From: Paeniglutamicibacter gangotriensis Lz1y
Lineage (GTDB): Bacteria; Actinomycetota; Actinomycetes; Actinomycetales; Micrococcaceae
Length of the DNA stretch: 64,000 nt
Assembly (NCBI RefSeq): GCF_000348945.1
Contig: NZ_AOCK01000003.1
Span: forward strand, 186,001-250,000
Direction: 5' to 3'
Shown: positions 6,789-29,808 of the stretch, piece after piece
Position numbering within the stretch: the stretch's first letter is position 1
Layout of the letters: each line of letters opens with the position of its first letter
Notes under the pieces: model-generated
The model's database searches: none
Seen by the model: only the letters and a program-made list of their open reading frames with translations
What the model was told of the DNA's origin: nothing
Translations under genes and position numbers: made by a program

Positions 6789-6793
6789 GATTC

Positions 6794-8143
6794 CTATCTG
6801 CCGACCATCAGGTAGGCAATCGGGCTGGCAATGAGAATGGTCAGGGCCACGCGTTGGGCCCAAATGACAACCAGGTGCCAGACCTTCAACGGTATCCGGG
6901 TTGCCAGGATGCAGGGCACCACGGCGGAGAAGAAGATGATCGCCGAAACGCAGACCACGCCGATGACCAGGCGCAAATGCTCGGATTCGTGGCCGGCGAC
7001 CACGGTGGCGGGCAGGAACATCTCGGCGATGCCCACGGCGGAGGCCTTGGCGGCCAACAGCGGATCCGGCAATCCAACGACCCAGGTGAAGGGGAGGAAG
7101 ATGTAGCCCAACCAGTCAAAGACCGGGGTGAAGCGGGCCAGCAGCAAGCCGATCAGCCCGACCGACAGGATCGAGGGCAGGATTGCCATGGCCATCAGCA
7201 CCCCGTCCTTGAAGTTGTCGCGCACATTGGCGCCCAGCTTCGGGGCGGTGGCGAGCATCCCCAGGGCATCGCGCCATGCGGTGGCCAAGCGCCGGGATTT
7301 CACCATTTCCTCGGGTTGGGCGGTGGCGGACCAGAAGTAGCTGTCCTCGATCTTGCTCAGCGGTGGGATGCGGACCACGATCGCGGTGACCAGGAACGTC
7401 ACAGCGAAGGTGAGGAAGAAGTAGGGCAGCCACAGGTGCATGATCTCCAACGTCTTGGCCACGATCAGCATGAAGGTGACCGAGACGGTGGAGAATCCGG
7501 TGGCAATGATCGCCGATTCGCGTCCGGTGTAGCGCCCGGACTGGTACATCCGATCGGTGATCAGCAGGCCCAGCGAGTAGCTGCCCACGAACGAGGCCAC
7601 CGCGTCGATGGCCGAGCGGCCCGGGGTGCGCCAGAGCGGGCGCATGACGCGCTGGACCAGCACCCCGACGAATTCCATCAGCCCGTAGCCCACCAGCAGG
7701 GCCAGAAAAACTGCACCAATGGGAACGATCATGCCCACCGGTATCACCAGCTTGTTGAACAGGAACGGTCCAAGGTCCGGATCGAAGAGCAATGCAGGGC
7801 CCACGTTGAACACCAGCATCGTGCCGGTGGCCAGGCCCAAGATGTTCAGGAACGCAAAAAGTGTCTTGACCCCTGAGTCCTTCCAGCGCCCGGAGGCGAA
7901 GGGGTAAATCGTTCCGGCCAGGATCAGTCCCAGGATCAGGTACTTGACCGCGGGTCCGAGCATGGCGGTGATCCAGCTGACCAGGTGGTCTAGCGGGATG
8001 GTGTTTTTCCCGCCGATGGTGATCGGAATGAAGAACATGAAGATCCCGATGAGACTGTAGACGAAGAACCGCCACAACCCCCGAGGCTTCTCGCCGATAT
8101 CTGCTTGTTCCAGGCGCGTCCCGATGGTGCCGTCGTTGGCCAT
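6794..8143 (-). CDS. YjiH-family membrane transporter, candidate histidine/urocanate permease
   Basis: 449 residues with about ten to eleven hydrophobic segments, starting with FFVYSLIGIFMFFIPITIGG after a short cytoplasmic N-terminus. The segment GSYSLGLLITDRMYQSGRYT and the following STVSVTFMLIVAKT match the YjiH/nucleoside-recognition-like membrane family. It is placed between hutU and the M20 amidohydrolase in the hut operon, so uptake of histidine or urocanate is the likely job, but the substrate is not evident from sequence. The stop is 5 bp before the downstream ATG, so co-transcription is certain in practice. Confidence 0.85.
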   Translation of the reverse strand: MANDGTIGTRLEQADIGEKPRGLWRFFVYSLIGIFMFFIPITIGGKNTIPLDHLVSWITAMLGPAVKYLILGLILAGTIYPFASGRWKDSGVKTLFAFLNILGLATGTMLVFNVGPALLFDPDLGPFLFNKLVIPVGMIVPIGAVFLALLVGYGLMEFVGVLVQRVMRPLWRTPGRSAIDAVASFVGSYSLGLLITDRMYQSGRYTGRESAIIATGFSTVSVTFMLIVAKTLEIMHLWLPYFFLTFAVTFLVTAIVVRIPPLSKIEDSYFWSATAQPEEMVKSRRLATAWRDALGMLATAPKLGANVRDNFKDGVLMAMAILPSILSVGLIGLLLARFTPVFDWLGYIFLPFTWVVGLPDPLLAAKASAVGIAEMFLPATVVAGHESEHLRLVIGVVCVSAIIFFSAVVPCILATRIPLKVWHLVVIWAQRVALTILIASPIAYLMVGR

Positions 8144-8151
8144 GGAAGCTC

Positions 8152-9831
8152 CTACTCCGACATCGGGATGCGCACGCCGCGTGCCTGCGCGACTTCGATG
8201 GCACGTTCGTATCCGGCGTCCACGTGCCGGATCACTCCCATGCCCGGGTCGTTGGTCAGCAGCGCCTCGAGCTTGGCCGCTGCCAGCTCGGTGCCGTCGG
8301 CCACCGAGACCTGCCCGGCGTGGATGGAGCGGCCGATGCCTACCCCGCCGCCGTGGTGGATCGAGACCCAGGTGGCCCCGGATGCGGTGGCGGTCATGGC
8401 GTTGAGCAGCGGCCAGTCCGCGATCGCGTCCGAACCATCCTTCATGGATTCGGTCTCGCGGTAAGGGGACGCCACAGAACCGGAGTCCAGGTGGTCGCGT
8501 CCGATCACAATGGGTGCGGAGATCTTGCCCTCGGCCACCAGCTGGTTGAACAGCAGGCCCGCCTGCTGGCGTTCGCCGTAGCCCAGCCAGCAGATGCGTG
8601 CCGGCAGGCCCTCGAATTCGACGTGTTCGGCGGCGGCGTTGAGCCAGCGGTGCAGGTGCTCGTTGTCCGGGAAGAGTTCCTTCAAGGCTTCATCGGTCAC
8701 GCGGATGTCTTCCGGGTCCCCGGAGAGGGCCACCCAGCGGAACGGGCCCAGGCCCTCGCAGAACAGCGGGCGGATGTAGGCCGGGACGAAGCCGGGGAAT
8801 TCGAAGGCGCGCTCGAAGCCGCCCTTGCGTGCCTCGTCGCGGATGGAGTTGCCGTAGTCGAAGACTTCGGCGCCGATGTCCTGGAAACCAACCATGGCCT
8901 CGACGTGTGCGGCCATCGCGTGCTGGGCCTTCTTGGTAAAGCCTGCTTCGTCGGCCTTGGCCTCGGCATCCCACTGCTCGATGGAGTATTCAACCGGCAG
9001 GTAGCTCAACGGATCGTGGGCACTGGTCTGGTCGGTGACGATGTCGAAGGAGACCGTCCCGGCCTTTTGGCGGCGCAGCAGCTCGGGGAAAACCTCGGCG
9101 GCGTTGCCGACATAGCCCACCGAGAGCGCACGCTTTTCATTCTTCGCCGCACTCACCTTGGCCAGGGCTGTATCCAGGTCCAGTTCCACCTCGTCGAGGT
9201 AGCGTTTGCCCAGCCGGCGGCGCAGGCGTTCCTCGGAGACATCCACGATCAGCACCGCCCCGCCGTTGAGGGTGACGGCAAGCGGCTGGGCTCCACCCAT
9301 GCCGCCGCACCCACCGGTGAGTGTCAGGGTGCCGGCCATGGTGCCGCCGAAGCGCTTGACACCGATGGCGGCGAAGGTCTCATAGGTTCCCTGCAGGATG
9401 CCCTGGGTGCCGATGTAGATCCAGGAACCGGCGGTCATCTGCCCGTACATCAGCAGGCCTTCGGCCTCCAGCTTGCGGAACTCGGGCCAGGTGGCCCAGT
9501 CCCCCACCAGGTTGGAGTTGGCGATCAACACGCGCGGTGCCCACTTGTTGGTGCGGAAGACCCCGACCGGCTTGCCCGACTGGATCAGCAGGGTCTCGTT
9601 TTCTTCCAGGTCCGTCAGCGTTTTGATGATGGCGTCATAGGCCTCCCAGGAGCGGGCGGCGCGTCCGGTGCCGCCGTACACCACCAAGTCCTCGGGGCGC
9701 TCGGCTACCTCCGGGTCCAGGTTGTTCATCAGCATGCGCAATGGGGCTTCGGTGGCCCAGGACTTGGCGGTCAGCGTGGTGCCACGCGGGGCACGGATGA
9801 CACGGGACGGATCATGTTGGGTGAAGCTCAT
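8152..9831 (-). CDS. hutU: Urocanate hydratase
   Basis: 559 residues, the usual length for urocanase. It converts urocanate to 4-imidazolone-5-propanoate using tightly bound NAD+. Recognisable are the N-terminal [19 protein letters not shown] start of the family, [20 protein letters not shown] (glycine-rich NAD-binding region), and [18 protein letters not shown] followed by [11 protein letters not shown] near the C-terminus. The minus-strand sequence before ATG 9831 contains AGGAGAA as ribosome-binding site. It follows the iclR gene with 42 bp between and precedes yjiH by 8 bp. Confidence 0.97.
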
Positions 9832-9873
9832 TGATGTGTTCTCCTCGATCAGTGATGCTGAAAATGGTGGTGG

Positions 9874-10560
9874 CTAAGAGCCGGCGGGGATGCCAAGTAA
9901 GGCTCGGGCCTCGGCGGCAACCAGATCGCCGATACGCTGAATTTCCGCCGGGTTCATCCGGTAGCTGGGGGCAACCACCGAGATCGCGGCCAGGGGCCCT
10001 TCGTCCACGGCGGCATCGGTTGCCCCGAGCTGCCGCAGCGGTGCGGCGATGGCCGTGACGTCGAGTTCGACGCCCTTGTCGGAGACCACATAGCCGGATT
10101 CGGGGGTCTTTCCTGCGAATACGACGCCCAGGCTGGAGCCCGAAAGCGGGACGCTGCGACCCACCCAGGAGGCGTGGCGTACCGAATGGGTGCCCTCGGC
10201 GATGGCCAGGTACACGGCGTGGTCGTTTCCCGTTCCCTGGTGGCCGCGTACCGAGAGGTATGCCGACTCTCCTGTCGCTTCGACCAAGCGTTGGAGAGCC
10301 GGTGCCGCCAGATGGATGAGCGATTCGTGGCTCAGCGCTTGGGCACCGAGCTGCACCAGGCGCAGACCGGGTCGGTATTCGCCTTCCTCGTCCTTGCGCA
10401 CAAAGCCGCTGTTTTCCAGGGTGCGCAGCAGGCGCAGGGCGGTGGATGCCGAAAGTTCGGTTTCGCGGGAGACTTCTGCCAGCGATACCGCCCCGGCCTC
10501 ACAGACCGCACCGAGCAATTGCAGCGCGCGTTCCACGGTTCGGGTTGCCGGTTCTGCCAC
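9874..10560 (-). CDS. IclR-family transcriptional regulator of the hut genes
   Basis: 228 residues from GTG 10560, which has GGAGGAA 6 nt upstream on the minus strand. The N-terminal winged helix-turn-helix (LAEVSRETELSASTALRLL, residues ~25-45) is followed by the IclR effector-binding domain with the characteristic LGVVFAGKTPESG and C-terminal ISVVAPSYRM segments. It is the first gene of the iclR-hutU operon and is divergent from hutH, so it most likely controls both directions through the inverted repeat at 10674-10694. Urocanate or histidine is the likely effector (inference). The open frame extends upstream to 10758, but that extension has no family similarity. Confidence 0.88.
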   Translation of the reverse strand: MAEPATRTVERALQLLGAVCEAGAVSLAEVSRETELSASTALRLLRTLENSGFVRKDEEGEYRPGLRLVQLGAQALSHESLIHLAAPALQRLVEATGESAYLSVRGHQGTGNDHAVYLAIAEGTHSVRHASWVGRSVPLSGSSLGVVFAGKTPESGYVVSDKGVELDVTAIAAPLRQLGATDAAVDEGPLAAISVVAPSYRMNPAEIQRIGDLVAAEARALLGIPAGS

Positions 10561-10673
10561 GTCATTCCTCCATATTTGGTGCTTTGGACCTTGAAATACT
10601 TGACCTCGGGGCTCCGAGTGGCGCCCTTCGTGCAAAATCCAAGGATCTAAGGGCTTGCCTCGGAGCCCGTGAT

Positions 10674-10694
10674 GCGTTTCACTTATTGAAACGC
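10674..10694. promoter_or_regulatory. Inverted repeat operator between iclR and hutH
   Basis: Perfect 8-bp arms GCGTTTCA and TGAAACGC separated by CTTAT, in the 217-bp gap between the divergent iclR and hutH starts. Size and symmetry suit an IclR-type dimer. It lies about 84 bp upstream of hutH and 114 bp upstream of the iclR start, a position from which both promoters could be controlled. Confidence 0.6.
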
Positions 10695-10777
10695 TAATTT
10701 CATCCCTTGGCAAGGGGTTGTCGAGATCTGATTCACACGACACCCTTGAAAACCGCACCCGTTAGAAGGAAAAACCC

Positions 10778-12340
10778 ATGAAGGCCAGCATCAGCATTTC
10801 AACCGGAGCCCTGCAACCGGCGGACGTCGTAGCAGTTGCTCGCCACGATGCCCAGGTGGAATTGGGCGCCGATGCCCTGGCCGCCATCGACTCCTCCCGC
10901 GCCGTCATCGACGCACTGGTCAACGACACCGTTCCGCACTACGGGGTCTCCACCGGATTCGGCGCGTTGGCCACCAAGCAAATCCCGATCGAGCTGCGCG
11001 CCCAGCTGCAGCGCTCATTGATCCGGTCCCATGCCGCATCCTCCGGTGCCGAGGTGCCCCGCGAAGTGGTTCGAGCCCTGATGCTCAACCGTCTCTCCAC
11101 TCTGGCCACCGGCCGCACCGGTGTGCGGCCCATCGTGGCCACCACCTATGCGGCGGTACTCAACGCCGGCATTACGCCGGTGATCGGTGAATACGGCTCC
11201 CTGGGCTGTTCCGGGGATCTGGCTCCGCTCTCCCACGCGGCCCTGACCCTGATGGGCGAGGGCCCGGTCCGAGACGCCGCCGGCACGGCCATGGAGGCCT
11301 CCGAAGCACTGGCCGCCGCCGGCATCGCCCCTGTTGTCCTGGCCGAAAAAGAGGGGCTGGCCCTGGTCAACGGCACCGACGGAATGCTCGGCATGTTGTT
11401 GATGGCATCTGCGGACTTGCATGCCTTGTTGTCCATCGCCGACATCTCGGCAGCCATGAGCATCGAGGGACTGTTGGGTACCGATGCGGTCTTCGCGGCC
11501 GACCTTCACGCACTTCGGCCGCATCCGGGACAGCGCGATTCCGCGACCAACATGCGCACGGTGCTGGCAGGCTCGCCCCTCATCGAGGAGCAAAAGGCCG
11601 GCGCCCACAAGTTCACCCGCGTGCAGGACGCCTATTCGCTGCGCTGCGCACCGCAGGTCCACGGGGCCGTGCGCGCCACCCTGGCCCACGCCGAATCCGT
11701 AGCAGCCATCGAACTCACCTCGGCGATCGACAACCCGGTGGTCACCCTGGATGGCCGGGTCGAATCAAACGGCAACTTCCATGGCGCTCCGATCGGCTAC
11801 GTGCTCGATTTCTTGGCCATTGCCGTCGCCGATCTGGCCTCCATCTCCGAACGCCGCACCGACAGGTTCCTGGACAAGGCCCGCAACCACGGACTCAACG
11901 CCTTCTTGGCCGATGACCCGGGCGTTGATTCCGGACACATGATCGCCCAGTACACCGCAGCCGGCATTGTCTCGGAGCTCAAGCGGCTAGCCGTCCCAGC
12001 CTCGGTCGACTCGATCCCGTCCTCCGCCATGCAGGAAGACCATGTCTCCATGGGCTGGCACGCGGGACTGAAACTGCGCAAGAGCATCGATGGGCTGGCC
12101 CGGGTACTGGCCATCGAGCTGCTCACCAGTGCTCGCGCCTTGGACATGCGCGACGGCGGCCTGGGCTCTTCCAAGTCCTCCCCGGTGATCACCGCGGTGC
12201 GCGAAGCCATTCGCACCAAGGTCGAGGGACCGGGCACCGACAGGTTCCTGGCTCCCGAGATCGAAGCGCTCTTCCAGCTGGTCGTCAGCGGCACCCTGTT
12301 GACAGCGGCCAATTCCCAGGCCGAGGTCCCACTGGCCTGA
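10778..12340 (+). CDS. hutH: Histidine ammonia-lyase
   Basis: 520 residues, normal length. It deaminates L-histidine to urocanate, the entry step of the pathway. The active-site Tyr loop HYGVSTGFGAL is near residue 54, and the MIO-forming tripeptide is Cys144-Ser145-Gly146 in GSLGCSGDLAPLSH, with Cys in place of the more common Ala. As far as I recall, Streptomyces-type enzymes share this C-S-G form, so activity is expected. AGAAGGA precedes ATG 10778. It is transcribed away from iclR-hutU and followed by a LysE-type exporter and hutD. Confidence 0.97.
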   Translation: MKASISISTGALQPADVVAVARHDAQVELGADALAAIDSSRAVIDALVNDTVPHYGVSTGFGALATKQIPIELRAQLQRSLIRSHAASSGAEVPREVVRALMLNRLSTLATGRTGVRPIVATTYAAVLNAGITPVIGEYGSLGCSGDLAPLSHAALTLMGEGPVRDAAGTAMEASEALAAAGIAPVVLAEKEGLALVNGTDGMLGMLLMASADLHALLSIADISAAMSIEGLLGTDAVFAADLHALRPHPGQRDSATNMRTVLAGSPLIEEQKAGAHKFTRVQDAYSLRCAPQVHGAVRATLAHAESVAAIELTSAIDNPVVTLDGRVESNGNFHGAPIGYVLDFLAIAVADLASISERRTDRFLDKARNHGLNAFLADDPGVDSGHMIAQYTAAGIVSELKRLAVPASVDSIPSSAMQEDHVSMGWHAGLKLRKSIDGLARVLAIELLTSARALDMRDGGLGSSKSSPVITAVREAIRTKVEGPGTDRFLAPEIEALFQLVVSGTLLTAANSQAEVPLA

Positions 12341-12428
12341 TCCACCACCGGCGGCATCCGATGACGGCGTATGTCGCGTCGGATGCCTGCCGCTGCTCGT
12401 TTCGTTGTTCGGCAGGCCAACCCAGATA

Positions 12429-13094
12429 ATGGATGCCCTGCCGTCTACCGCTCTCCTGGGTTTTGCCGGGGTCGCCCTCGTCGTGGTCCTGTCCCCCGGT
12501 CCCGATACCTTCCTGACCCTGCGCTACGCGTTGAACCGCCCGCGCAACGGGGTTGCCGCCGCCTTGGGCATGATGATTTCCATCATGGGCTGGGCTGCCT
12601 TGGCCGGCCTCGGGGTGGCTGCACTGTTGCAGACCTATCCGGCGATCCACCAGGTGATCGCCGTCGTCGGTGGCGCCTACCTGCTGTACCTGGGGCTCGG
12701 CTCCCTGATCAAGGCACGGTTCCTGGCCGGAGCCTCGGCGGCGACGGCACGCACCGCCACCCGAACCGCCGCCGCCGCCGGCAGTGCGTACACCCTGTTC
12801 CAATCCCTGCGCGCCGGCATGCTCTCGGCGGCTCTGAACCCGAAGCTGGGACTACTGTTCCTGGCCCTGATGCCACCATTTATCCCGGTCGGATCAAATA
12901 TGCTCGGTTCCGCCTTGCTCCTGGGTGCCATCTTCGCACTCATGGGCTTCGCCTATTTGATGGTGCTCACGGCCATCGCGGCCAAGGCCATGGCGTGGTT
13001 CAAAAGCCCCACAGTTGGCATCTGGCTCGAACGGGTGTCCTCTGCCGCGCTAGCCATCATGGGCATCGTGGTGCTCGTCGGGGCGTTCCTCTAG
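12429..13094 (+). CDS. LysE/RhtB-family amino acid exporter
   Basis: 221 residues with about six hydrophobic segments. The N-terminal signature GFAGVALVVVLSPGPDTFLTLRY, split around the conserved PGPD, and the later SALNPK-type motif (SAALNPKLGLLFLALMP) define the LysE/RhtB family. It lies 88 bp after hutH and 20 bp before hutD. Export of an amino acid (histidine excess or a breakdown product) is plausible in this context but the substrate cannot be read from sequence. ATG 12429 is chosen at the natural family start; its ribosome-binding site is weak, and a TTG at 12405 is a possible alternative. Confidence 0.85.
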   Translation: MDALPSTALLGFAGVALVVVLSPGPDTFLTLRYALNRPRNGVAAALGMMISIMGWAALAGLGVAALLQTYPAIHQVIAVVGGAYLLYLGLGSLIKARFLAGASAATARTATRTAAAAGSAYTLFQSLRAGMLSAALNPKLGLLFLALMPPFIPVGSNMLGSALLLGAIFALMGFAYLMVLTAIAAKAMAWFKSPTVGIWLERVSSAALAIMGIVVLVGAFL

Positions 13095-13114
13095 CGGCGG
13101 CTAGACTTCAAACC

Positions 13115-13720
13115 ATGACGACTTCGAACCCCGCCCTGACCGCTGGAACGATGGTGCACCTGGCCGATTCGACCAAAAGAAAATGGGCGCACGGGGACGT
13201 GCGCGAGATCGCCGCGGGGAAGTTGGGCCCGGATGCCGACCTGCTGCCGGCCGAGGGCAACAGTTGGGACTGGCGCTTGAGCATCGCGTCCATCGAACGA
13301 TCCGGGGAGTTCACCCCTTATGAAGGATTCGACCGCACCCTCACGGTGATCGTCGGAGAGCTGCTCGAGCTGACCATCGATGGAACCGTCCAAGCGGTGG
13401 AGGGGCTTCGACCACTGAAGTTCTCCGGGAACAGCACTGTTTCCGCGGCGTTGCCCACCGGCGAGGTGCTGGCGTTGAACTTGATCACCCGCACCGGCGT
13501 GCTCCGCGGAAACGTACGCATCGTGGAGCTGTCCAAGAAGCGCGAGCAGCACCTCTTCGGCGGGCAGTTGGGTGTGCTGCTGCAGGGCAAGGCCACGGTG
13601 CTGCGGGAGGAAACCGAAGCCCCGTTCGAGCTGCGCGACACCATGATCGGAGGGGAAGAAGATTCCCCGCGGATCAGCGGCCGCGGCTTCATGGCCGTGG
13701 TTTCTCTCGACCTTCCTTAA
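13115..13720 (+). CDS. hutD: HutD/Ves-family protein
   Basis: 201 residues. The pattern WDWRLSIASIERSGEFTPYEGFDRTLTVIVG (split here around the F-x-G-x-DR core) is that of HutD, a bicupin-like beta-barrel protein found in hut operons. HutD is thought to tune histidine catabolism, perhaps by binding formylglutamate, but has no proven reaction. The start ATG at 13115 follows the exporter stop by 20 bp. It is the last gene of the hutH transcript. The gap to the next module (13721-13923) shows nothing recognisable. Confidence 0.85.
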   Translation: MTTSNPALTAGTMVHLADSTKRKWAHGDVREIAAGKLGPDADLLPAEGNSWDWRLSIASIERSGEFTPYEGFDRTLTVIVGELLELTIDGTVQAVEGLRPLKFSGNSTVSAALPTGEVLALNLITRTGVLRGNVRIVELSKKREQHLFGGQLGVLLQGKATVLREETEAPFELRDTMIGGEEDSPRISGRGFMAVVSLDLP

Positions 13721-20701: not shown

Positions 20702-21641
20702 GCGGTCCCGGCATCCGTCCGAAGGTCGCCAAGGTCTTCTGCGACGAGGAAACGGAGATGATCTGCGATGAGCTGGGCTACGACCTGATCCTGCCACCGG
20801 CCGAACTGCGCGCCCGACTGGATTCGTAGATCGTCACCACCGGTCTGGGCAACGAGGCCGGGGTCGCCTCGGTGCCAAACGTGCTGACCCGCGGCAGTGA
20901 CTGGAGCACGCTGCGCCGCGAGCCCGACGCGGCCCGGCTCGGCGACGAACTGGTGGTCCAGACCCCCTACGGGGACTCGGGCAAAAGCACCTTCTTCATC
21001 AACAACGAATCCGACTGGGACACCCACAGCGCAGACATCATCGGCCAGGACATCAAGGTGATGCGCCGGATCAACAACCTGCCGGTGGCCGTCGAGGCGG
21101 TACTGACCCGCTCCGGCACCGTGGTCGGCCCGTTCCTCACCGAACTCGCCGGTCACCAGGACCTGACCCCGTGCTCGAGTTCATGGAGGTCGAGTTCGAG
21201 CTGGACATCGAGGAAATCAATGCCCGCTGGGAGGCACTCTCCGGCGCGGATACCTGGAGCCAGATGATCATCAAGGAAACCAGTGAGACCGTCGAGCTGC
21301 TCACGGCCACCCCCGCCACCGGCCAGTACCACCTCGATTCCAACGGCGCCCTGGTCTTCGGCCGTGCCGCCGTGGACTGGCACATGCTGCAAAACGAGTC
21401 CGAGGCGTTCTTCCTGCGCATCTACGGGCCCGGCGACTACCGCTGGAAGGGCGGGGACCTGGGCATCCTGGTCACCAAGGGCAGGCTGCAGGTGCGGCGC
21501 AACGGGTCCCCGCAGCTGAGCATCAGGGCCAAGCACTTCATCGATTCCATCCGCGCCGGCTTCACCGGTCTGCAGGTGGACGGCGGTGTCCAGCACGAGC
21601 TGCCAGCCTTCGCCGGGATCGGAGTCAAGACCAGGTGGTAG
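20702..21641 (+). pseudogene. Decayed copy of the ATP-grasp (biotin-carboxylase-like) gene
   Basis: This stretch is a degraded duplicate of the gene at 23702-25617. Fragments in order: GIRPKVAKVFCDEETEMICD then LGYDLILPPAELRARLDS, an in-frame TAG at 20828, VQTPYGDSGKSTFFINN to VLTRSGTVVGPFLTELAGH, then a deletion that removes the part containing the catalytic strand and the E-x-NPR motif, and a frame change into LEFMEVEFELDIEEINARWE through GPGDYRWKGGDLGILVTKG to the natural end VKTRW. About the first 240 residues of the intact gene have no counterpart here. DNA identity with the second copy is very high at 20936-21140 against 24656-24860. Confidence 0.85.
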
Positions 21642-21715
21642 GAGGACCACCCAACAAATTCGCCGCCGCGAAGAGGCCCTGATGCTGCACCCAAGCAGCA
21701 ACCGAGAGGACGGTC

Positions 21716-22992
21716 ATGGACGGCACGAACCTTGAGTACCGACCACCAACCGTGGGCGTGGGCAACTGGCAGCTGCCACACAACCTGAGCTGGTCCTTTC
21801 AGCACTTTGCCGAGTTCCTGCCCACCGCGTTGATTTCGCGGGGGCAGGGACCGGCCTCGGTGCTGCCCATCAATCCCCTGGATCTCAGGGCCATCTCACG
21901 ACCTGCGGCCTTCCCCACCGAAGCACCGATGAGTGTCGGCTCGGTCATCGATTCCACCGACACCGACGCCTAGATGATGATGCACCGCGGCACGTGGTCT
22001 CCGAGGCCTACTTCGGGGATATGGCCCCGCACTCCGCGCACCTGGTGATGTCGGTGAGCAAGTCCCTGGTCGGTGCGGTGGCCGGCTCCCTGTGCGATTC
22101 CGGGCTGCTGGATCCCACGGCGCCACTGACCGATTACCTGCCGGCGCTCACCGGAACCGGCTATGCTGGGGCCACGGTGCGGAACCTGCTGGATATGCGT
22201 TCGGGCATCGGGTTCTCCGAGGACTACCTGGACCCGCGCGCCGAGGTGCGGATGATGGAGGAAGCCATCGGCTGAGCCCATCCCACGGCACCGGGCAGCA
22301 TCGGGATGTACCCATACCTTCGCACATTGCGGCAGAAATGGGCCCACGGCGGGGTCTTTGAATACCGTTCCTGCGAGACCGACGTGCTCGGGTGGGTCTG
22401 CGAGCCAGCGGCCCGGGCACCGATGCCGATGCTGCTGTCCCACCTGTTGTGGGGCAATCTCGGCGCCGAACACAATGCCACCATCGGCATTGACCAGTTC
22501 GGCACCGGCATGTTCGACGGCGGCATCAATGCCACGTTGCGCGATCTGGCCCGTTTCGGCCCACTGTTCCTCAACGACGGCATCTCGTCCACCGGCGAGC
22601 GCGTGTTCTCCCGGTCTTGGGTCACCCAGACGCTGGCCTGGGCCCCGGATTCTCGGGCGGCCTTCACCAACAGCCCGGGCGATAACCGTATGCCCGGCGG
22701 CATGTACCGCAACCAGATGTGGTTCCCCTACCCGGGCAGCGACGTGCTGCTCGCCCGGGGTGTCCACGGTCAGCTGATCTACATCAACCGCTCCGCCCAG
22801 GTCGTCGGGGTGAAGCTTTTCAGCTGGGCCTACCCGCAGGGCGCCTCCAAGCTCTGCCCCACGCTGCGGGCCTTCGACGCAATCTCCGCGACCCACCCCA
22901 CGCAGTACCGCGGGGTGGGCCGGCCGTTCCTGCCACTGTTCAACGTCCCGGCACCCCAGGGCCCTCCGGGCCCCACCGCGCCACCGGCCTAA
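21716..22992 (+). pseudogene. Decayed copy of the NylB-like serine hydrolase gene
   Basis: Aligns by eye along its whole length with the intact gene at 25684-26868. ATG 21716 opens normally, then a TAG at 21971 replaces the Trp codon of the intact D-G-W-M motif, with a nearby deletion that shifts frame; the second block carries the SxxK serine (LVMSVSKSLVGAV) and ends at a TGA at 22273, again where the intact gene has Trp. The third block from about 22306 (MYPYLRTLRQKW to QLIYINRSAQVVGVK) runs to 22992 with a Pro/Gly-rich extra tail. Two Trp-to-stop changes plus a frameshift make this a clear pseudogene. Confidence 0.88.
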
Positions 22993-23051: not shown

Positions 23052-23584
23052 ACCGTGGCCTTCCGCTGCCCTGCTTCATTCCGGAGCATCCGATGCCGCT
23101 GGCCGATTCTTCAGCCAGTGGTCATCAACTGATTTCCCTAGCGTCGCGGGGCACCTGAGGTGCTCACGGCTGTAACAATAGGTCGACGCACTGCATGCCC
23201 GGCCGGTGGCTGTCCACACTGATAATTCCGGGGCACGGTGCCTGCTCGGCGGCATGTTACCGGGCTCACAAACAACCGCGCCGGAGCCACTCATGACCTT
23301 CATCACTGCTTGTCGGACTCGCATACCCGGTCTCCGGGAGGCAAGAGGCACCCGGTGGTTTGCCCCCCATCGGGTACATCCTCGCTCACGAACACCTACA
23401 CGCTCTCCGACAGGCCGGTTCCGACCTGCCCATCAGCACCCTCGGGCGTCATCTATCCCTGCCAGATAGGCAGTCATCACTAAATCGCACTAAGTTGGCT
23501 GGACTTGAAGATTCAAACGGTGAATCCGAATCGGATGGCCCGCGGCAGCCGCCGCAGACATTCTTGGGGAATGGTACTCACCTT

Positions 23585-23642
23585 GTTGCCGGAGGTTCCG
23601 GGCACCGCACGAAAGCGCGGAATGCCCGGTACCTCCGGCAAC
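23585..23642 (+). promoter_or_regulatory. Long inverted repeat upstream of the ATP-grasp gene
   Basis: Arms of 20 bp at 23585-23604 and 23623-23642 match at 19 of 20 positions when one is reverse-complemented; the 18-nt loop can extend the stem through CCGC/GCGG. It ends 59 bp before ATG 23702. No T run follows, so it is more likely a leader hairpin or protein-binding site than a terminator. The decayed copy upstream has no visible counterpart. Confidence 0.55.
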
Positions 23643-23701
23643 GCGGAATTATCCTGACTCCGCCGGTTCTTGGATACATGCCGACGAAAAGGAGTGGGGC
23701 C

Positions 23702-25617
23702 ATGAGCGCAGAAACCAGCCGATCCAGCAAGGAAATCGTCCAGCCGCGTCCGACCACCAAGGTGGTCGTGGCCAAACCGGCAACGGGCACCTCTACCGTC
23801 GTCAAAAAGGCCAAGCCTGCGACGGCCACCACCGTGAAGAAGCCCGCTGCTGCAGCTGCGCCCGCGGCCGCGTCCAAAGCCACAAAACTTGCAGCCAAGC
23901 CTGCTGCGAAGACCACCAAGCCAAGCACCCGCACGACGCCGGCCGCCAAGCCAGTGGTCACCAAGCCACCGGCAACGTCTTCTCCCACCGCGTCTTCGGC
24001 CGCCGTTAGGGCCGCTGCTCCGCTGGCGGACACGGTACCTTCGGTGGATCCGATGCCCCGGGCTGTGCCCACCGACCCGGAGATCCCCGAGGCAACCATC
24101 GGCACCGATGCAGCATTCGCTTCCGACGCCCCCTCGGTGACGGTCCCCCACACGGTCCGCAACATCTCCGAGGTTCGGCACTTCTTCCGCACCAACGACG
24201 TACCGATCTTCTTTGTTGGTGCCACCCCCTTCAACCTGCTGGGCCTGGACCGTTGGGTGCGGAACTTCTCCTATGTCAGCTACTACGACTCCTGGGATGG
24301 CGCCCACCCGAGGATCTTCACCCCCGCGCACAAGCCCGTCACGGACTTCGAATCGGGCGAGGAGATCAACAACTGGTTGCTGCTCAACGCCGAGGTCCGC
24401 GCCCGCATGACCCAGAACCTGCGCCCCGGTCTCCGGCCCAAGGTCGCTCTGGTCTTCTTCAACGAGGAAACCGAACGCATCTGCCGCGAATTGGGCTACG
24501 ACCTGATTCTGCCCGCGGCCGAGCTGCGCGACCGACTGGACTCGAAGATCGTCACCACCAAAATGGGCGACGAAGCCGGGGTGCCCTCGGTACCCAATGT
24601 GCTCTCCAACGGCACCACCTTCAAGGCCCTGCGTGAGGCCGCCGACGCGGCATGGCTCGGCGACGAACTGGTGGTCCAGACTCCCTACGGGGACTCGGGC
24701 AAGACCACCTTCTTCATCAACAACGAATCCGACTGGGACACCCACAGCGCAGACATCATCCGCCAGGACATCAAGGTGATGCGCCGGATCAACAATCTGC
24801 CGGTGGCCGTCGAGGCGGTACTGACCCGCTCCGGCACCGTGGTCGGCCCGTTCTTCACCGAGCTGGCCGGGCACCCGAGCCTGACCCCGTACCCCGGCGG
24901 CTGGTGCGGAAACGAGATGCACCCCGAGGTGCTCACCGCCACGCAGCGTGCCCGGGCCATGGACCTGGTCAAGCGCATGGGCGATCGCCTGGACACCGAG
25001 GGCTACCGCGGCTTTTCCAGGTCGACGTGCTGGTGGACACCGACACCGACGAGGTCTACCTGGGCGAACTGAACCCCCGGATCTCCGGGGCCAGCGCCAT
25101 CGCCAACGTGACAGCCGGCGCCTATGCCGATGTGCCACTGTTCCTCTTCCACCTGCTGGAGTACCTCGATGTCGCCTTCGAGCTGGACATCGATGAGATC
25201 AACGCTCGCTGGGAGGCACTCTCCGGCGCCGACGTGTGGAGCCAGATGATCATCAAGGAGACTTCCGAGACCGTCGAGCTGCTCACCTCGGCCCCCGCCA
25301 CCGGCCAGTACTACCTGGATGCCAACGGGGCCATGGTCTTCAACCGTGCGGCGCTGGACTGGCACATGCTCCAAAACGAGTCAGAGGCGTTCTTCCTGCG
25401 CATCTACGGCCCCGGCGACTACCGCTGGAAGGGAGCGGATCTAGGCGTCCTGGTCACCAAGGGCCGCCTACAGGTCGACCGACACGGGAAAACGCAGCTG
25501 AACATCAGAGCCCAGCACTTCATCGACTGCCTGCGCGCCGGATTTGTCGGGAAACCGCTGGATGACGACGCGCGGGCAGGCTTCACCCCCGGCCGCGGGG
25601 TGAAATCCCAGTGGTAA
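23702..25617 (+). CDS. ATP-grasp (biotin-carboxylase-like) protein with Lys/Ala/Pro-rich N-terminus; apparent frameshift at 25013-25017
   Basis: Starts at ATG 23702 after AAAAGGAG. Residues ~1-110 are low complexity (repeats such as KPAT, TTKPSTRTTPAAKP, AAAAPAAASKATKLAAKPAA), like histone-H1-type tails. The folded part begins near VRHFFRTNDVPIFFVGATPF. ATP-grasp features are VVQTPYGDSGKTTFFINN (nucleotide-binding loop) and EVYLGELNPRISGAS (metal-binding E-x-N-P-R). The frame as written ends at 25072 after GYRGFSRST; one extra T in the run 25013-25016 restores GFFQVDVLVDTDTDEVYLGE and reading to 25617, giving about 640 residues. The loss may be a sequence error, a recent lesion or programmed slippage. 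The reaction is probably ATP-dependent ligation of a carboxylate; no biotin partner is nearby. A NylB-like hydrolase follows after 66 bp. Confidence 0.75.
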
Positions 25618-25683
25618 TGTCCAGATGAGCCAGTGCCGTATGCGCGGCAATGACCGTATGCACGGCAATGACAAGGAGCAGTC

Positions 25684-26868
25684 GTGAACGACACCTTTTT
25701 GGGCGAAGTCCCGCCGCCAGTAGGCATGATGAACTGGCAGCGGCCCGAAAACCTGCGTTGGTCCTTCCAGCACCTCGCCGAGTTCCTCCCCACCGCGGCG
25801 ATCTCCCGGGGCCAGGGACCGATCGCCGAGCTGCCCTTTGCCGCCGCGGATTTAGAATCGATCGTGCTGCCGCCGGCGCTGGCCGGGGAACCGGCGATGA
25901 CCGTCGGCTCGGTCATGGCCTCCACCGACACCGACGGGTGGATGCTGATGCACCGCGGCACCGTGCTGGCCGAGTCCTACACCGGCGAAATGTCCAGCGG
26001 CTCCAAGCACCTGCTGATGTCGGTGAGCAAGTCCCTGGTCGGTGCGGTGGTCGGTGCGCTCTCCGACGCCGGGGTGCTAGATATCGACGCCCCCCTCACC
26101 ACCTATGTGCCCACCCTGGCGGACACCGGTTATGCCGGGGCCACGGTGCGCAACCTGCTGGATATGCGCTCGGGCATCGCCTTCTCCGAGGACTACCTCG
26201 ACCCGCGCGCCGAGGTCCGCCTGCTCGAAGAGGCCATCGGCTGGGCGCCACCGGCGGTGGCGGGCCCCACCGGCATGTACCCGTACCTGATGACGCTGCG
26301 GCAGAAATGGGACCACGGCGGAGTCTTCGAATACCGTTCCTGCGAGACCGACATGCTCGGCTGGATCTGCGAGGCCGCGGCCGGGGCGCCGATGCCCACG
26401 CTGATGTCGCAGCTGTTGTGGTCCAAGATCGGGGCCGAGGCCGACGCGATGATCGGCGTGGACCAGTTCGGCACCGGGATGTTCGATGGCGGCATCAACG
26501 CCACCCTGCGTGATCTGGCCCGCTTCGGCGCCCTGTTTTTGGGCGACGGGCTCTCACTGACCGGCGAACGGGTGCTCTCGGCGCAGTGGATCGCGCAGAC
26601 CCTGGCCGGGGCGCCGGATTCCCGCGAGGCTTTTGCCGCCAGCCCGGGCGATAACCGCATGCCCGGGGGCATGTATCGCAACCAGATGTGGTTCCCCTAC
26701 CCCGGGAATGAGGTTTTGCTTTCCCTGGGCATCCACGGGCAGCTGATCTACATCAATCGCCCCGCCCAGGTCATCGGGGTGAAGCTTTCGAGTTGGCCGC
26801 ACCCGCAGGACGCCACCAAGCTCTTCCCCACCTTGAGCGCCTTCGATGCGATGGCAGCGGCCCTGTAA
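25684..26868 (+). CDS. NylB-like serine hydrolase (beta-lactamase / penicillin-binding fold)
   Basis: 394 residues from GTG 25684, with AAGGAG 7 nt upstream. The catalytic SxxK is Ser113-Val-Ser-Lys116 in LLMSVSKSLVG, and the second-motif Tyr217 lies in FEYRSCETDMLGW, the YRSxxTDxLGW pattern of 6-aminohexanoate-dimer hydrolase (NylB) relatives; MFDGGINATLRDLARFG and GNDR-like DNRMPGGMYRNQMW follow. NylB-type enzymes cut linear amides or esters. No signal peptide, so it is cytoplasmic. It stands between the ATP-grasp gene and a PLP decarboxylase, all on the plus strand, and the upstream pseudogene pair shows that the ATP-grasp/hydrolase pair travels as a unit. Confidence 0.9.
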   Translation: MNDTFLGEVPPPVGMMNWQRPENLRWSFQHLAEFLPTAAISRGQGPIAELPFAAADLESIVLPPALAGEPAMTVGSVMASTDTDGWMLMHRGTVLAESYTGEMSSGSKHLLMSVSKSLVGAVVGALSDAGVLDIDAPLTTYVPTLADTGYAGATVRNLLDMRSGIAFSEDYLDPRAEVRLLEEAIGWAPPAVAGPTGMYPYLMTLRQKWDHGGVFEYRSCETDMLGWICEAAAGAPMPTLMSQLLWSKIGAEADAMIGVDQFGTGMFDGGINATLRDLARFGALFLGDGLSLTGERVLSAQWIAQTLAGAPDSREAFAASPGDNRMPGGMYRNQMWFPYPGNEVLLSLGIHGQLIYINRPAQVIGVKLSSWPHPQDATKLFPTLSAFDAMAAAL

Positions 26869-27016
26869 TGCACCTACGGCTTCACCCCCCAGGCGCCCTA
26901 CGCGGCGTCCGGCGCACCGACACCCCTAAGAGACCGCCACCCGTTCCGGCGGACTTCCACAGAACCCAACCACCGACGCCCCTTCGAAGGCGCCTTCCAG
27001 GAACGGAGCAGCCGTG

Positions 27017-29746
27017 ATGGCACCAACCACCCAGCATGACACCGAACAATATGCCACACCCTCCAGCGTGTGGCGCTTACGCACCGACGCTTGGGAGTAC
27101 CTGGGCTATGCGGCCAAGGCCCTTCCGGGTGCCAGCGAACGAGGCAAATCCGAAGACGGGCTGCTGAAGGAAGTCACCCGGCAGCTGCGCGTGCTCGAAG
27201 CCGTGGAAACCTACTGGGCCGTGCCGGGCAAGGCCCGGGTGCTGGCCCTGCGTGCGAGCATCGAGGCCGGAAACTACGCCGAGGCCCTGGACCAGATCGA
27301 ACCGGTGACCCGCGCCTTCAGCAGGTTCGGGCACGACACCGAGGAGCGGAGCCAGGATTCCGACGGTCAGCTGTCCCCCTTTGATCCCTCCATCGCCACC
27401 GCATCGGACCCGCGGCCCCGGTTCGAGGTGCTGGTCATTGACGACGTGTCCGAGACGGACCGCGAGGAACTCCTGGCTGAAATGGCCCGCCAACGCCGCT
27501 CCACCGACGCCTTCGTCTACGAGATCAATGTGGTCTCCAGCCTCGAGGACGCCATCATTGCGATGCTGCTGAACCCCACCATCCAGGCCTGCATCCTGCG
27601 CCCCGGATTCACCATCCCGGCCCGGCACCGCCCGGGCGAGGACCTGCGCCGGTTCTTGGATGGCTTCGTGGACCCTGACATCGCCAGCTACCCGCCCAAG
27701 GAACGCATCCTCCGGCTGGCCGACAAGCTCAAGGAGCTGCGCCCGGAGGTGGATCTGTACCTGGTGGCCGATGTGTCCATCGAGGAACTTGCCGGGTCGG
27801 TGAACCGGCGCTTCGCCCGGCTCTTCCGCCGCGAGGAGTCCATGGAAATTCACCTCTCGCTGCTCCAGGGTGTCTCCGAACGTTTTGCCACCCCGTTCTT
27901 CGACGCGGTGCAGCAATACAGCCGCAAACCCGCAGCGGTCTTCCACGCGCTGCCCATTTCGCGCGGTGGTTCGGTGGTGAACTCCCGCTGGATCAAGGAC
28001 ATGGAGGAGTTCTACGGGCTGAATCTGCTTCATGCCGAGACCTCGGCGACCTCCGGCGGGTTGGACTCGCTGCTGGATCCACACGGCTCCATCAAGGAGG
28101 CCCAGGACCTGGCCGCGCGTGCCTTCGGGGCCCGACGCTCCTACTTCGTGACCAACGGGACCTCGACGGCCAACAAGATCGTGCACCAATCGATTGTGGC
28201 CCCGGGCAACGTGGTGCTGGTGGATCGAAACTGCCACAAGTCCCACCACTATGCGCTGATGCTCGCCGGCGCCCAGGTCGCCTACATGGACGCCTACCCA
28301 CTGAACGATTTCTCCTTCTACGGGGCGGTGTCGCTGCGGACCATCAAGTCGATGCTGCTTGACTACCGCAGGGCCGGACGGTTGGACGAGGTCACGATGC
28401 TCACGCTGACCAACTGCACCTTCGACGGCATCGTCTACGACGTCGAGCGGGTCATGGCCGAATGTCTGGCCATCAAACCCGATCTGGTATTCCTCTGGGA
28501 CGAGGCCTGGTTCGCGTTCGCTTCCTTCCACCCGGTCTACCGCCGGCGCACCGCGATGGCTGCCGCCGCCAAGCTCGAGAAGGACTTCAAGGATCCCGCG
28601 TACGCAGCCCGCTACGCCGCCCAGCGCGAAACCCTCTTCGATCCGGTCACCGGAGAACCACTTGATGACGAAGCGTGGCTGAACACCCGGTTGCTGCCGG
28701 ACCCGGACACCGCTCGCTTGCGCGTCTACGCCACCCAGTCCACGCACAAGACCTTGACCTCGCTGCGGCAGGGATCGATGATCCATGTCTTCGACCAGGA
28801 CTTCAACCACCTCAACGAGGAAACCTTCCGCGAGGCGTACATGACGCACACCTCCACCTCCCCGAACTACCAGATCCTGGCCTCGCTGGACATCGGCCGG
28901 CGCCAGGCCGAGCTCGAAGGCTACGAGCTGGTCCAACGCCAGGCCTACCTGGCCCAGTCGGTGGCCCAGATGGTGGCCCGCCATCCGCTGCTCAAGAAGT
29001 ACTTCCGGGTGCTGACCACCCTGGATCTGATCCCGGAGGAGTTCCGTGAGACCACCCGGCCGATGCCGTTGCGTGACGGGATCGCGGCCATGGACGAGGC
29101 CTGGCGCAGAGACGAATTTGTGGTGGATCCCAGCCGGCTGACACTACATATCGGCAACACCGGGGTCGACGGGGACACCTTCAAGCACCAGTATCTGATG
29201 GACGGCTACGGGATCCAGGTCAACAAGACCAGCCGGAACACGCTGTTGTTCATGACCAACATCGGTACCTCGCGCAGCGCCGCGGCCTACCTCATCGACG
29301 TGCTGGTCAAGCTGGCCGAGCACTTCGAGACCGAACGCCAGGATATGAGCCCGTGGGCGTTGGCCGCACTCGAAAAGACCGTGGCGTCACTGGTCGGCAC
29401 CCCGCCGCCGCTGCCGGACTTCAGTCGCTTCGCCGACCACTTCCGGGTTGATGACCAAACCATCGACGGGGATATCCGCACCGCGTACTTCGCCACCTAC
29501 AAGACCGGCAGCTGCGGGTATTTGATGCCCGACGAGCTGGCCGAACAGGTGCGTGCGGGCCACGAAGTGATCTCCGCGGGCTTCGTCACCCCGTACCCGC
29601 CGGGATTCCCGATCCTGGTGCCGGGGCAGGTCTTCACCGCCGAGATCCTTTCCTTCATGGCGGCCCTCGATACCCGCGAGATCCACGGCTACGACCCGGA
29701 TCTAGGCTACCGGGTCATCAACGAGTTGCCCGTTCGCAAGGGCTAA
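27017..29746 (+). CDS. Orn/Lys/Arg-type PLP-dependent amino acid decarboxylase
   Basis: 909 residues from ATG 27017 (a GTG at 27014 directly before it is an alternative; GGAG is at 27005). After an unusual ~130-residue N-terminal region comes a receiver-like wing domain (FEVLVIDDVSETDREELL), then the fold-type I core: FVTNGTSTANKIVHQ (phosphate site), LVDRNCHKSHHYALM, LVFLWDEAWFAF (PLP-binding Asp), and the PLP lysine at about residue 578 in TQSTHKTLTSLRQGSM. The C-terminal domain ends in PYPPGFPILVPGQ, the family end. It should decarboxylate lysine, ornithine or arginine to a (poly)amine. It is longer than the usual ~750 residues. It lies 148 bp after the hydrolase. Confidence 0.92.
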   Translation: MAPTTQHDTEQYATPSSVWRLRTDAWEYLGYAAKALPGASERGKSEDGLLKEVTRQLRVLEAVETYWAVPGKARVLALRASIEAGNYAEALDQIEPVTRAFSRFGHDTEERSQDSDGQLSPFDPSIATASDPRPRFEVLVIDDVSETDREELLAEMARQRRSTDAFVYEINVVSSLEDAIIAMLLNPTIQACILRPGFTIPARHRPGEDLRRFLDGFVDPDIASYPPKERILRLADKLKELRPEVDLYLVADVSIEELAGSVNRRFARLFRREESMEIHLSLLQGVSERFATPFFDAVQQYSRKPAAVFHALPISRGGSVVNSRWIKDMEEFYGLNLLHAETSATSGGLDSLLDPHGSIKEAQDLAARAFGARRSYFVTNGTSTANKIVHQSIVAPGNVVLVDRNCHKSHHYALMLAGAQVAYMDAYPLNDFSFYGAVSLRTIKSMLLDYRRAGRLDEVTMLTLTNCTFDGIVYDVERVMAECLAIKPDLVFLWDEAWFAFASFHPVYRRRTAMAAAAKLEKDFKDPAYAARYAAQRETLFDPVTGEPLDDEAWLNTRLLPDPDTARLRVYATQSTHKTLTSLRQGSMIHVFDQDFNHLNEETFREAYMTHTSTSPNYQILASLDIGRRQAELEGYELVQRQAYLAQSVAQMVARHPLLKKYFRVLTTLDLIPEEFRETTRPMPLRDGIAAMDEAWRRDEFVVDPSRLTLHIGNTGVDGDTFKHQYLMDGYGIQVNKTSRNTLLFMTNIGTSRSAAAYLIDVLVKLAEHFETERQDMSPWALAALEKTVASLVGTPPPLPDFSRFADHFRVDDQTIDGDIRTAYFATYKTGSCGYLMPDELAEQVRAGHEVISAGFVTPYPPGFPILVPGQVFTAEILSFMAALDTREIHGYDPDLGYRVINELPVRKG

Positions 29747-29757
29747 AGGATCAGCCG

Positions 29758-29808
29758 GCGTTGGCCGGGGTGCAGGAGCCATCCCGCACCCCGGCCAACG
29801 CTGTTTTT
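29758..29808. terminator. Strong intrinsic terminator after the decarboxylase
   Basis: Perfect 16-bp stem (29758-29773 with 29786-29801), 12-nt loop, followed by TGTTTTT. It separates the plus-strand decarboxylase from the convergent universal stress protein gene and ends the ATP-grasp/hydrolase/decarboxylase run. Confidence 0.9.

Follow-up and report, generated by a model that had tools for sequence, protein, structure and literature searches.

The ATP-grasp, NylB-like hydrolase and Orn/Lys/Arg-type decarboxylase genes described here form a real and apparently undescribed three-gene module that spans two phyla, Actinomycetota and Pseudomonadota. The set lies in a stretch of 64,000 nucleotides, referred to as the window, from the 4.32 Mb genome of Paeniglutamicibacter gangotriensis Lz1y (contig NZ_AOCK01000003.1, positions 186,001 to 250,000). 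On the plus strand the ATP-grasp gene (23702-25617) is followed by the hydrolase gene (25684-26868), the decarboxylase gene (27014-29746) and a terminator. Among the literature matches listed, no title or abstract opening describes this set, in a search whose scope left subscription journals mostly outside. The trio is proposed to be a decarboxylase/amide ligase/amide hydrolase module of amine or arginine catabolism, which would resemble gamma-glutamylation but use unrelated enzymes, a reading to which we give a probability of roughly 0.4. A preliminary description made from the letters of the window alone is confirmed in part in what it observed and supported in part in how it was interpreted.

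Conservation and co-occurrence in Actinomycetota

The ATP-grasp gene and the hydrolase gene had been described as a pair that behaves as a unit, and the comparison of related loci bears this out. All 29 carriers in the family that score above the curated cut-off of the ATP-grasp profile NF005096 (PRK06524; 684 bits) were fetched, and the hydrolase gene lies directly after the ATP-grasp gene in each of them. A wider scan, in which each species was represented by a single genome, yielded 137 confirmed loci, of which the best 80 were examined, all from Actinomycetota by title. The hydrolase gene is directly downstream in 72 of these 80 loci, with a gap of 20-283 bases; of the remaining eight, three Mycolicibacterium/Mycobacterium loci lack the hydrolase, two are located at the end of a contig and three are arranged differently. 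Counting any arrangement, the pair is present in 17 of 18 lineages, where the lineages are our own grouping of record titles and the neighbour gene calls are rough calls of our own. The wider scan used two exact actinobacterial peptide patterns, and its silence on other phyla is uninformative.

In each of the 12 Paeniglutamicibacter loci (L053-L064) the decarboxylase gene comes next, in the same orientation. In other genera of the family it is found nearby on the opposite strand (for example in L050-L052, L069 and L071) or elsewhere in the genome, and it is near the ATP-grasp gene in 14 of the 80 loci. The neighbourhood check that had been set beforehand thus finds the three genes together in other genomes. 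The decarboxylase holds as a partner by its co-occurrence, however, its place as a close neighbour is only optional. In a sample of 149 genomes of the family, in which the broken copy of the window was counted, the ATP-grasp gene is present in 24 genomes and the decarboxylase gene in 27; both are present in 22, only the ATP-grasp gene in 2, only the decarboxylase gene in 5 and neither in 120. The decarboxylase is therefore found in 22/24 ATP-grasp carriers versus 5/125 non-carriers, with an odds ratio of 264 that is inflated by the relatedness of the genomes. A control gene from the same window, an alpha-mannosidase, gave an odds ratio of 3.5 (p 0.014). Counted by genus, the decarboxylase is present in 7 of 7 genera with the ATP-grasp gene versus 2 of 25 without it; the two genes share genomes in five genera, are confined to different genomes in g8 and g24, and only the decarboxylase occurs in g16 and g26. 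The decarboxylase count includes a fragment (G081), a gene in two pieces (G102) and two genes with an internal stop (G051 and G073). Physical linkage does not account for the co-occurrence, because the two genes are widely separated or on different contigs in 9 of the 22 co-carriers.

Plasmid loci of Pseudomonadota

A search of plasmid proteins detected the ATP-grasp protein in 30 records from Rhizobium, Sinorhizobium, Cupriavidus, Roseobacter, Pseudorhodobacter, Roseateles and Shinella, with 45-51% identity among the matches listed, where it is annotated as 'biotin carboxylase' or not annotated. The 14 plasmid loci studied (L205-L218) were picked from 32 records, of which 24 cover at least 80% of the query and 14 of these 24 were fetched; eight further Sinorhizobium records that hold only pieces of the query (39-47%) lie outside the sample. 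Six of the 14 loci are from Rhizobium leguminosarum. A gene or gene piece of the C45 family is located directly downstream of the ATP-grasp gene in all 14 loci, and PF03417 was found in the three that were tested. The C45 gene is cut short in L208, lies behind a second ATP-grasp piece in L218 and in L215 is a match that is not annotated as a gene. The gene set therefore spans two phyla with the hydrolase exchanged. The exchange between two unrelated hydrolases under a constant ligase is a strong hint, and the strongest evidence obtained, that an amide is made and subsequently cut.

The long-type decarboxylase is located upstream of the ATP-grasp gene in 10 of the 14 plasmid loci, from five genera, and it is short or in pieces in L208, L214 and L215. 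The loci of Roseateles, Shinella and Sinorhizobium RAC02 (L206, L207 and L212), whose proteins are more than 90% alike and which were counted as one lineage, have no such decarboxylase. In its place they feature a racemase-arginase fusion, a FAD amino-acid oxidoreductase, an aldehyde dehydrogenase, a 5-guanidino-2-oxopentanoate decarboxylase (NF005712, 733 bits against a cut-off of 500) and an agmatinase-family enzyme (216 bits, TIGR01230 cut-off 174.3). The replacement of the decarboxylase by other arginine-degrading genes suggests that arginine may be its substrate. These loci resemble the arginine oxo-acid/4-guanidinobutyrate pathway in having a decarboxylase, an aldehyde dehydrogenase and an agmatinase-family hydrolase around the ATP-grasp/C45 pair; to our knowledge, the known pathway includes neither an ATP-grasp ligase nor a C45 hydrolase. 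The C. necator locus, L210, has neither the long-type decarboxylase nor the arginine-type replacement set.

Several features of individual plasmid loci were also observed. The fusion protein in L206 consists of alanine-racemase and arginase-family domains, is 595 residues long, adjoins the ATP-grasp/C45 pair and has close matches in L207 and L212. The decarboxylase, ATP-grasp and C45 genes adjoin nifHDK on a Rhizobium leguminosarum plasmid (L214), and the trio is near Nif11-type peptide and radical-SAM genes in L215 and L216.

The ATP-grasp protein

The database name of the ATP-grasp protein is 'biotin carboxylase', and the preliminary description had argued that the locus is not that of an ordinary carboxylase. 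In biotin carboxylases the Gln-Val-Glu that follows NPR/NTR is the bicarbonate site. The alignment revealed Ser-Gly-Ala after NPR(I) at the position where pyruvate and methylcrotonyl-CoA carboxylases have Gln-Val-Glu, and four Pseudomonadota ATP-grasp proteins have Cys, Thr or Ser-Gly-Ala at this position. The absence of Gln-Val-Glu agrees with that argument, and identity of the protein as a biotin carboxylase was rejected by this motif test. No carboxyl-carrier or transferase partner was found among the annotated neighbour proteins, a set that does not cover the neighbour clusters 33 and 45 and most single neighbours. The Glu-x-Asn-x-Arg of the ATP-grasp site is invariant in 42 sequences. The predicted fold (pLDDT 80.9) is matched equally by carboxylases, GAR synthetase, PurK and PylC. 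The enzyme should form amide bonds.

The window protein features an Ala/Thr/Lys/Pro-rich N-terminal tail (23702-24142, plus strand) with the conserved motif GTDAAF at 24101-24118. The length of this tail is very variable among the actinobacterial relatives and reaches several hundred residues in some of them (loci L074-L153), and a DAA(F/Y)-like motif is located at most 60 residues before the core in 68 of the 80 actinobacterial loci. The tail and the motif are absent from the four aligned Pseudomonadota proteins.

The NylB-like hydrolase

The hydrolase is a serine hydrolase of the beta-lactamase fold (PF00144, 1.2e-31) that matches the NylB structures with an E-value of 7.2e-70 over residues 15-375, which is nearly the whole chain, and its AlphaFold model has a pLDDT of 93.3. 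NylB-type hydrolases are known chiefly for the cleavage of nylon oligomers. The window protein belongs to the same family as NylB, the nylon-oligomer enzyme of Arthrobacter, and shares its catalytic motifs: the Ser-x-x-Lys and Tyr of NylB-type enzymes are present as Ser113, Lys116 and Tyr217 and are invariant in 39 sequences. The two proteins differ in that Glu182 and Asp268 of the hydrolase, also invariant in the 39 sequences, occupy the positions of Asp181 and Asn266 in NylB. Asp181 and Asn266 are important for hydrolysis of the 6-aminohexanoate dimer according to PMC7019077, and the window hydrolase is by these residues not a 6-aminohexanoate-dimer hydrolase proper. PMC11052090 reports that NylB binds the amino end of its substrate first and that a 4-aminobutyryl compound is hardly cut. 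Acidic residues at both substrate positions would be fitting for a substrate with a positive end, and one may speculate that a shorter omega-aminoacyl group, for instance that of GABA, could be accommodated by the longer acid. A second NylB-like gene was observed upstream of the pair in L078 (5482-6633, the same as 6179-7330 in L058), with no ATP-grasp match of its own beside it.

The decarboxylase

The decarboxylase is a PLP enzyme of 910 amino acids in the long, Rv2531c-like form. It belongs to the Orn/Lys/Arg decarboxylases, with PF01276 found at 4.5e-75 and residues S576, H578 and K579 invariant in 13 sequences; Ser-x-His-Lys is the PLP site of these enzymes. The likeness to the Rv2531c-type structure 9n0n is full-length (3.1e-231 over residues 22-904), and the organism and the gene context differ. 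The activity of Rv2531c-type decarboxylases is described as not clarified in PMC12910592.

Neighbouring genes

The neighbours of the 80 loci were clustered without prior choice and counted by lineage. The commonest families after the pair itself are an amino-acid permease (8 of the 18 lineages), an aldehyde dehydrogenase (8), the decarboxylase (5) and a GABA transaminase (5). The transaminase scores above its cut-off; the aldehyde dehydrogenase cluster is nearest to succinate-semialdehyde dehydrogenase and scores below the cut-off for that enzyme. A NAD-glutamate dehydrogenase, a copper amine oxidase, an M20 peptidase, an efflux transporter (cluster 35) and an AMP-forming ligase each occur in 3 lineages, and clusters 33 and 45, in 4 lineages each, carry no annotation. 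In L110, from Propionibacteriaceae, a copper amine oxidase gene that is cut by the contig end, an aldehyde dehydrogenase, a permease, an agmatinase, the ATP-grasp gene and the NylB-like gene are arranged head to tail. Twelve genomes were reached through 13 loci chosen partly for nearby amine-type genes, and no count was taken from these.

The neighbour counts were compared with 39 control windows from fixed places, partly in other genomes than those of the 80 loci; the neighbour profiles were built from the loci themselves, and low thresholds were applied to loci and controls alike. The decarboxylase is near the ATP-grasp gene in 14/80 loci versus 0/39 controls (one-sided p 0.003) and the GABA transaminase in 10/80 versus 0/39 (one-sided p 0.015). 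At least one of decarboxylase, transaminase, copper oxidase and dehydrogenase was found in 30/80 loci (13/18 lineages) versus 4/39 controls, and two or more of the five neighbour families in 15/80 loci versus 1/39 controls.

The locus in P. gangotriensis

The three plus-strand genes in a row that had been reported for the window are intact in the case of the hydrolase and the decarboxylase, which are both open frames; the frameshift in the ATP-grasp gene had been missed. The ATP-grasp gene is split over two frames, 23360-25072 and 24652-25617, of which the first is valid to about 25015 and the second from about 25018. Both pieces match NF005096 (6.1e-124 and 1.2e-79), and the N-terminal piece reaches position 300 of the profile and the piece in the other frame resumes at 304. 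NF005096 is above its cut-off in 12 of 15 genomes of the genus; the window gene matches only as pieces below the cut-off and two genomes give weak matches only. At the T run at 25013-25016 the window is one nucleotide shorter than all eight relatives compared. Additionally, the window deviates at 3 of the 159 ATP-grasp residues that are invariant in 42 relatives (G237R, E323Q and T351A, in L074 numbering). The same comparison as a yardstick shows deviation at 1/77 invariant hydrolase residues and 4/305 invariant decarboxylase residues, and individual relatives deviate at between 0 and 9 ATP-grasp positions that are otherwise invariant, so the three residue changes are no proof by themselves. 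Combined with the frameshift, they suggest a gene at an early stage of decay, and a real early pseudogene appears likelier than an assembly error. A lone homopolymer error as the cause of the frameshift was held unlikely because three invariant residues differ too.

The preliminary description was also correct in reporting a decayed second copy of the first two genes directly upstream. This older ATP-grasp/hydrolase copy is located at about 20.7-23.0 kb on the plus strand, with stops in both remnants: the ATP-grasp copy (about 20707-21643) has an internal stop and its middle part is missing, and the NylB-like copy (about 21711-22992) has internal stops and matches PF00144 on two fragments. Base identity between the two copies is 76% over 1733 columns and 85% over 466 columns, which is about equal to the identity of each with other species. 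The idea that the upstream remnant arose by a recent tandem duplication was rejected, since the copies are no closer to each other than to other species. Both copies of the ligase in this strain appear to be broken, and the hydrolase and decarboxylase are kept. The ligase step has probably been lost in this strain, and the unit as it stands, with its ligase frameshifted, probably makes nothing.

The strong terminator that had been noted behind the decarboxylase gene (29758-29808, plus strand) is well supported as an intrinsic terminator. It consists of a stem at 29758-29801 and a T run to 29808, with a folding energy of -48.8 kcal/mol (z -6.7) that was equalled by none of 200 shuffles; a simple terminator scan of the window does not list it. 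A histidine-utilisation (hut) locus is located at 3062-13720, about 13 kb from the decarboxylase gene, and contains amidohydrolases, an M20 peptidase, a transporter, urocanase, an IclR regulator, histidine ammonia-lyase and a HutD domain.

Proposed function and alternatives

Polyamines are catabolized by gamma-glutamylation in the Puu pathway of E. coli and the GlnA2/GlnA3 pathway of Streptomyces. The gene set resembles these pathways (compare PMC8998196) in having an ATP-dependent ligase and a later amide hydrolase, which in some lineages lie beside genes for amine oxidation, an aldehyde dehydrogenase, a GABA transaminase and an amino-acid permease. It differs in that the ligase is an ATP-grasp enzyme and does not have the glutamine-synthetase fold, and in that the hydrolase is NylB-like or C45 and not of the PuuD type. 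By this analogy, the Rv2531c-type decarboxylase would convert a basic amino acid, most likely arginine, to a diamine or guanidino-amine. The ATP-grasp enzyme would then use ATP to form an amide between a carboxylic acid and either this amine or an omega-amino acid, and the varying oxidases and aldehyde dehydrogenase would oxidise the other end. The NylB-like enzyme, or the C45 enzyme in Pseudomonadota, would split the amide to release GABA or a similar omega-amino acid, which the GABA transaminase could take over. The substrates and the catabolic direction are what we infer from the genes, and the order of the steps is borrowed from the gamma-glutamylation pathway; that the amine from the decarboxylase enters the amide, as proposed at the outset, would follow the same line. 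Action of the decarboxylase on arginine is suggested by the plasmid loci described above.

The points that weigh against this catabolic module are the following. The ATP-grasp gene stands without a hydrolase, beside a Ser/Thr kinase and a PucR-type regulator, in three Mycolicibacterium/Mycobacterium loci (L089, L094 and L098). The copper amine oxidase is not significantly enriched near the ATP-grasp gene (6/80 versus 0/39, one-sided p 0.087), and the permease (14/80 versus 4/39) and aldehyde dehydrogenase (15/80 versus 4/39) are unenriched, so these two families carry no weight alone. An oxidase, an aldehyde dehydrogenase and a GABA transaminase are near the pair in several lineages and absent in others: in Paeniglutamicibacter the profiles detected no oxidase or GABA genes up to about 8 kb from the trio, and no decarboxylase, transaminase, copper oxidase or dehydrogenase in 20 Brevibacterium loci, of which 10 have a DAO-family oxidase. 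The window genome has three glutamine-synthetase-type genes, so the classical gamma-glutamylation route may exist too. Finally, of the 12 loci with a decarboxylase that is unlinked to the pair, 5 have hut genes close to it, which hints at histidine.

A more specific form of the catabolic module is an undescribed amine-catabolic route of the two phyla, in which the ATP-grasp enzyme would conjugate an agmatine- or putrescine-type product or an omega-amino acid and the NylB-like or C45 enzyme would release it; this version is put forward tentatively. Such conjugation and release brings to mind the insect Ebony/Tan cycle, where Tan, a member of the C45 family, hydrolyses beta-alanyl amines.

A different possibility, which we consider somewhat unlikely, is that the ligase assembles, and the hydrolase breaks down, a peptide in which a basic amino acid is stored or transported (X-Arg or GABA-X), and that the amino acid so released is degraded by the decarboxylase or through the oxo-acid route. 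Arginine would be the common denominator of the two alternative degradation gene sets, and ATP-grasp dipeptide ligases exist. ABC transporter genes follow the trio in Roseobacter and on several Rhizobium plasmids, where they are named oligopeptide or peptide transporters in L205 and L218, and 3 loci of a single genus have a peptide symporter beside the unlinked decarboxylase. A storage or transport peptide leaves unexplained, however, the amine oxidase, agmatinase and GABA transaminase beside the pair in other lineages.

These same neighbours point to catabolism and do not favour the earlier proposal that the unit synthesizes a product and trims it. A biosynthetic unit, in which the ATP-grasp enzyme would build a small amide natural product from the amine of the decarboxylase and the hydrolase would trim it, is consistent with the order and conservation of the trio and with the rhizobial plasmid loci near nifHDK or peptide-maturation genes. 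However, the annotated neighbour families that recur mostly have catabolic, transport or general functions, with one efflux transporter, and a biosynthetic role is improbable.

The chances are poorer still for a histamine or histidine-conjugate system, in which the decarboxylase would act on histidine or its product and the pair would conjugate and free the amine. Urocanase or lyase genes are located beside the decarboxylase in the five unlinked loci mentioned above (urocanase in L158, L160, L161 and L165; a lyase with 30% identity only in L159), which belong to other genera and have the decarboxylase inside or beside the hut genes. The window has its own hut locus, and hut queries match none of the 39 control windows. 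Three of the 29 family loci (L053, L057 and L062) have a histidine ammonia-lyase-type match at a distance of 6-8 kb from the trio. On the other side, only one of the 80 loci, L075, has a match to the two hut queries near the pair, at its edge, and no hut-named gene is present in the 9 annotated plasmid loci. That the protein is a genuine subunit of a biotin-dependent carboxylase and has its neighbours by chance is barely credible, as Gln-Val-Glu is replaced and the neighbours are conserved over two phyla.

Implications

The proposed decarboxylase/amide ligase/amide hydrolase module of amine or arginine catabolism provides a testable function for three groups of proteins, the misnamed 'biotin carboxylase' family, the Rv2531c-type decarboxylases and the NylB-type hydrolases. 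If the two-phylum route of conjugation and release is true, a natural function of the NylB-type 'nylonases' would be to hydrolyse omega-aminoacyl or acyl amines.

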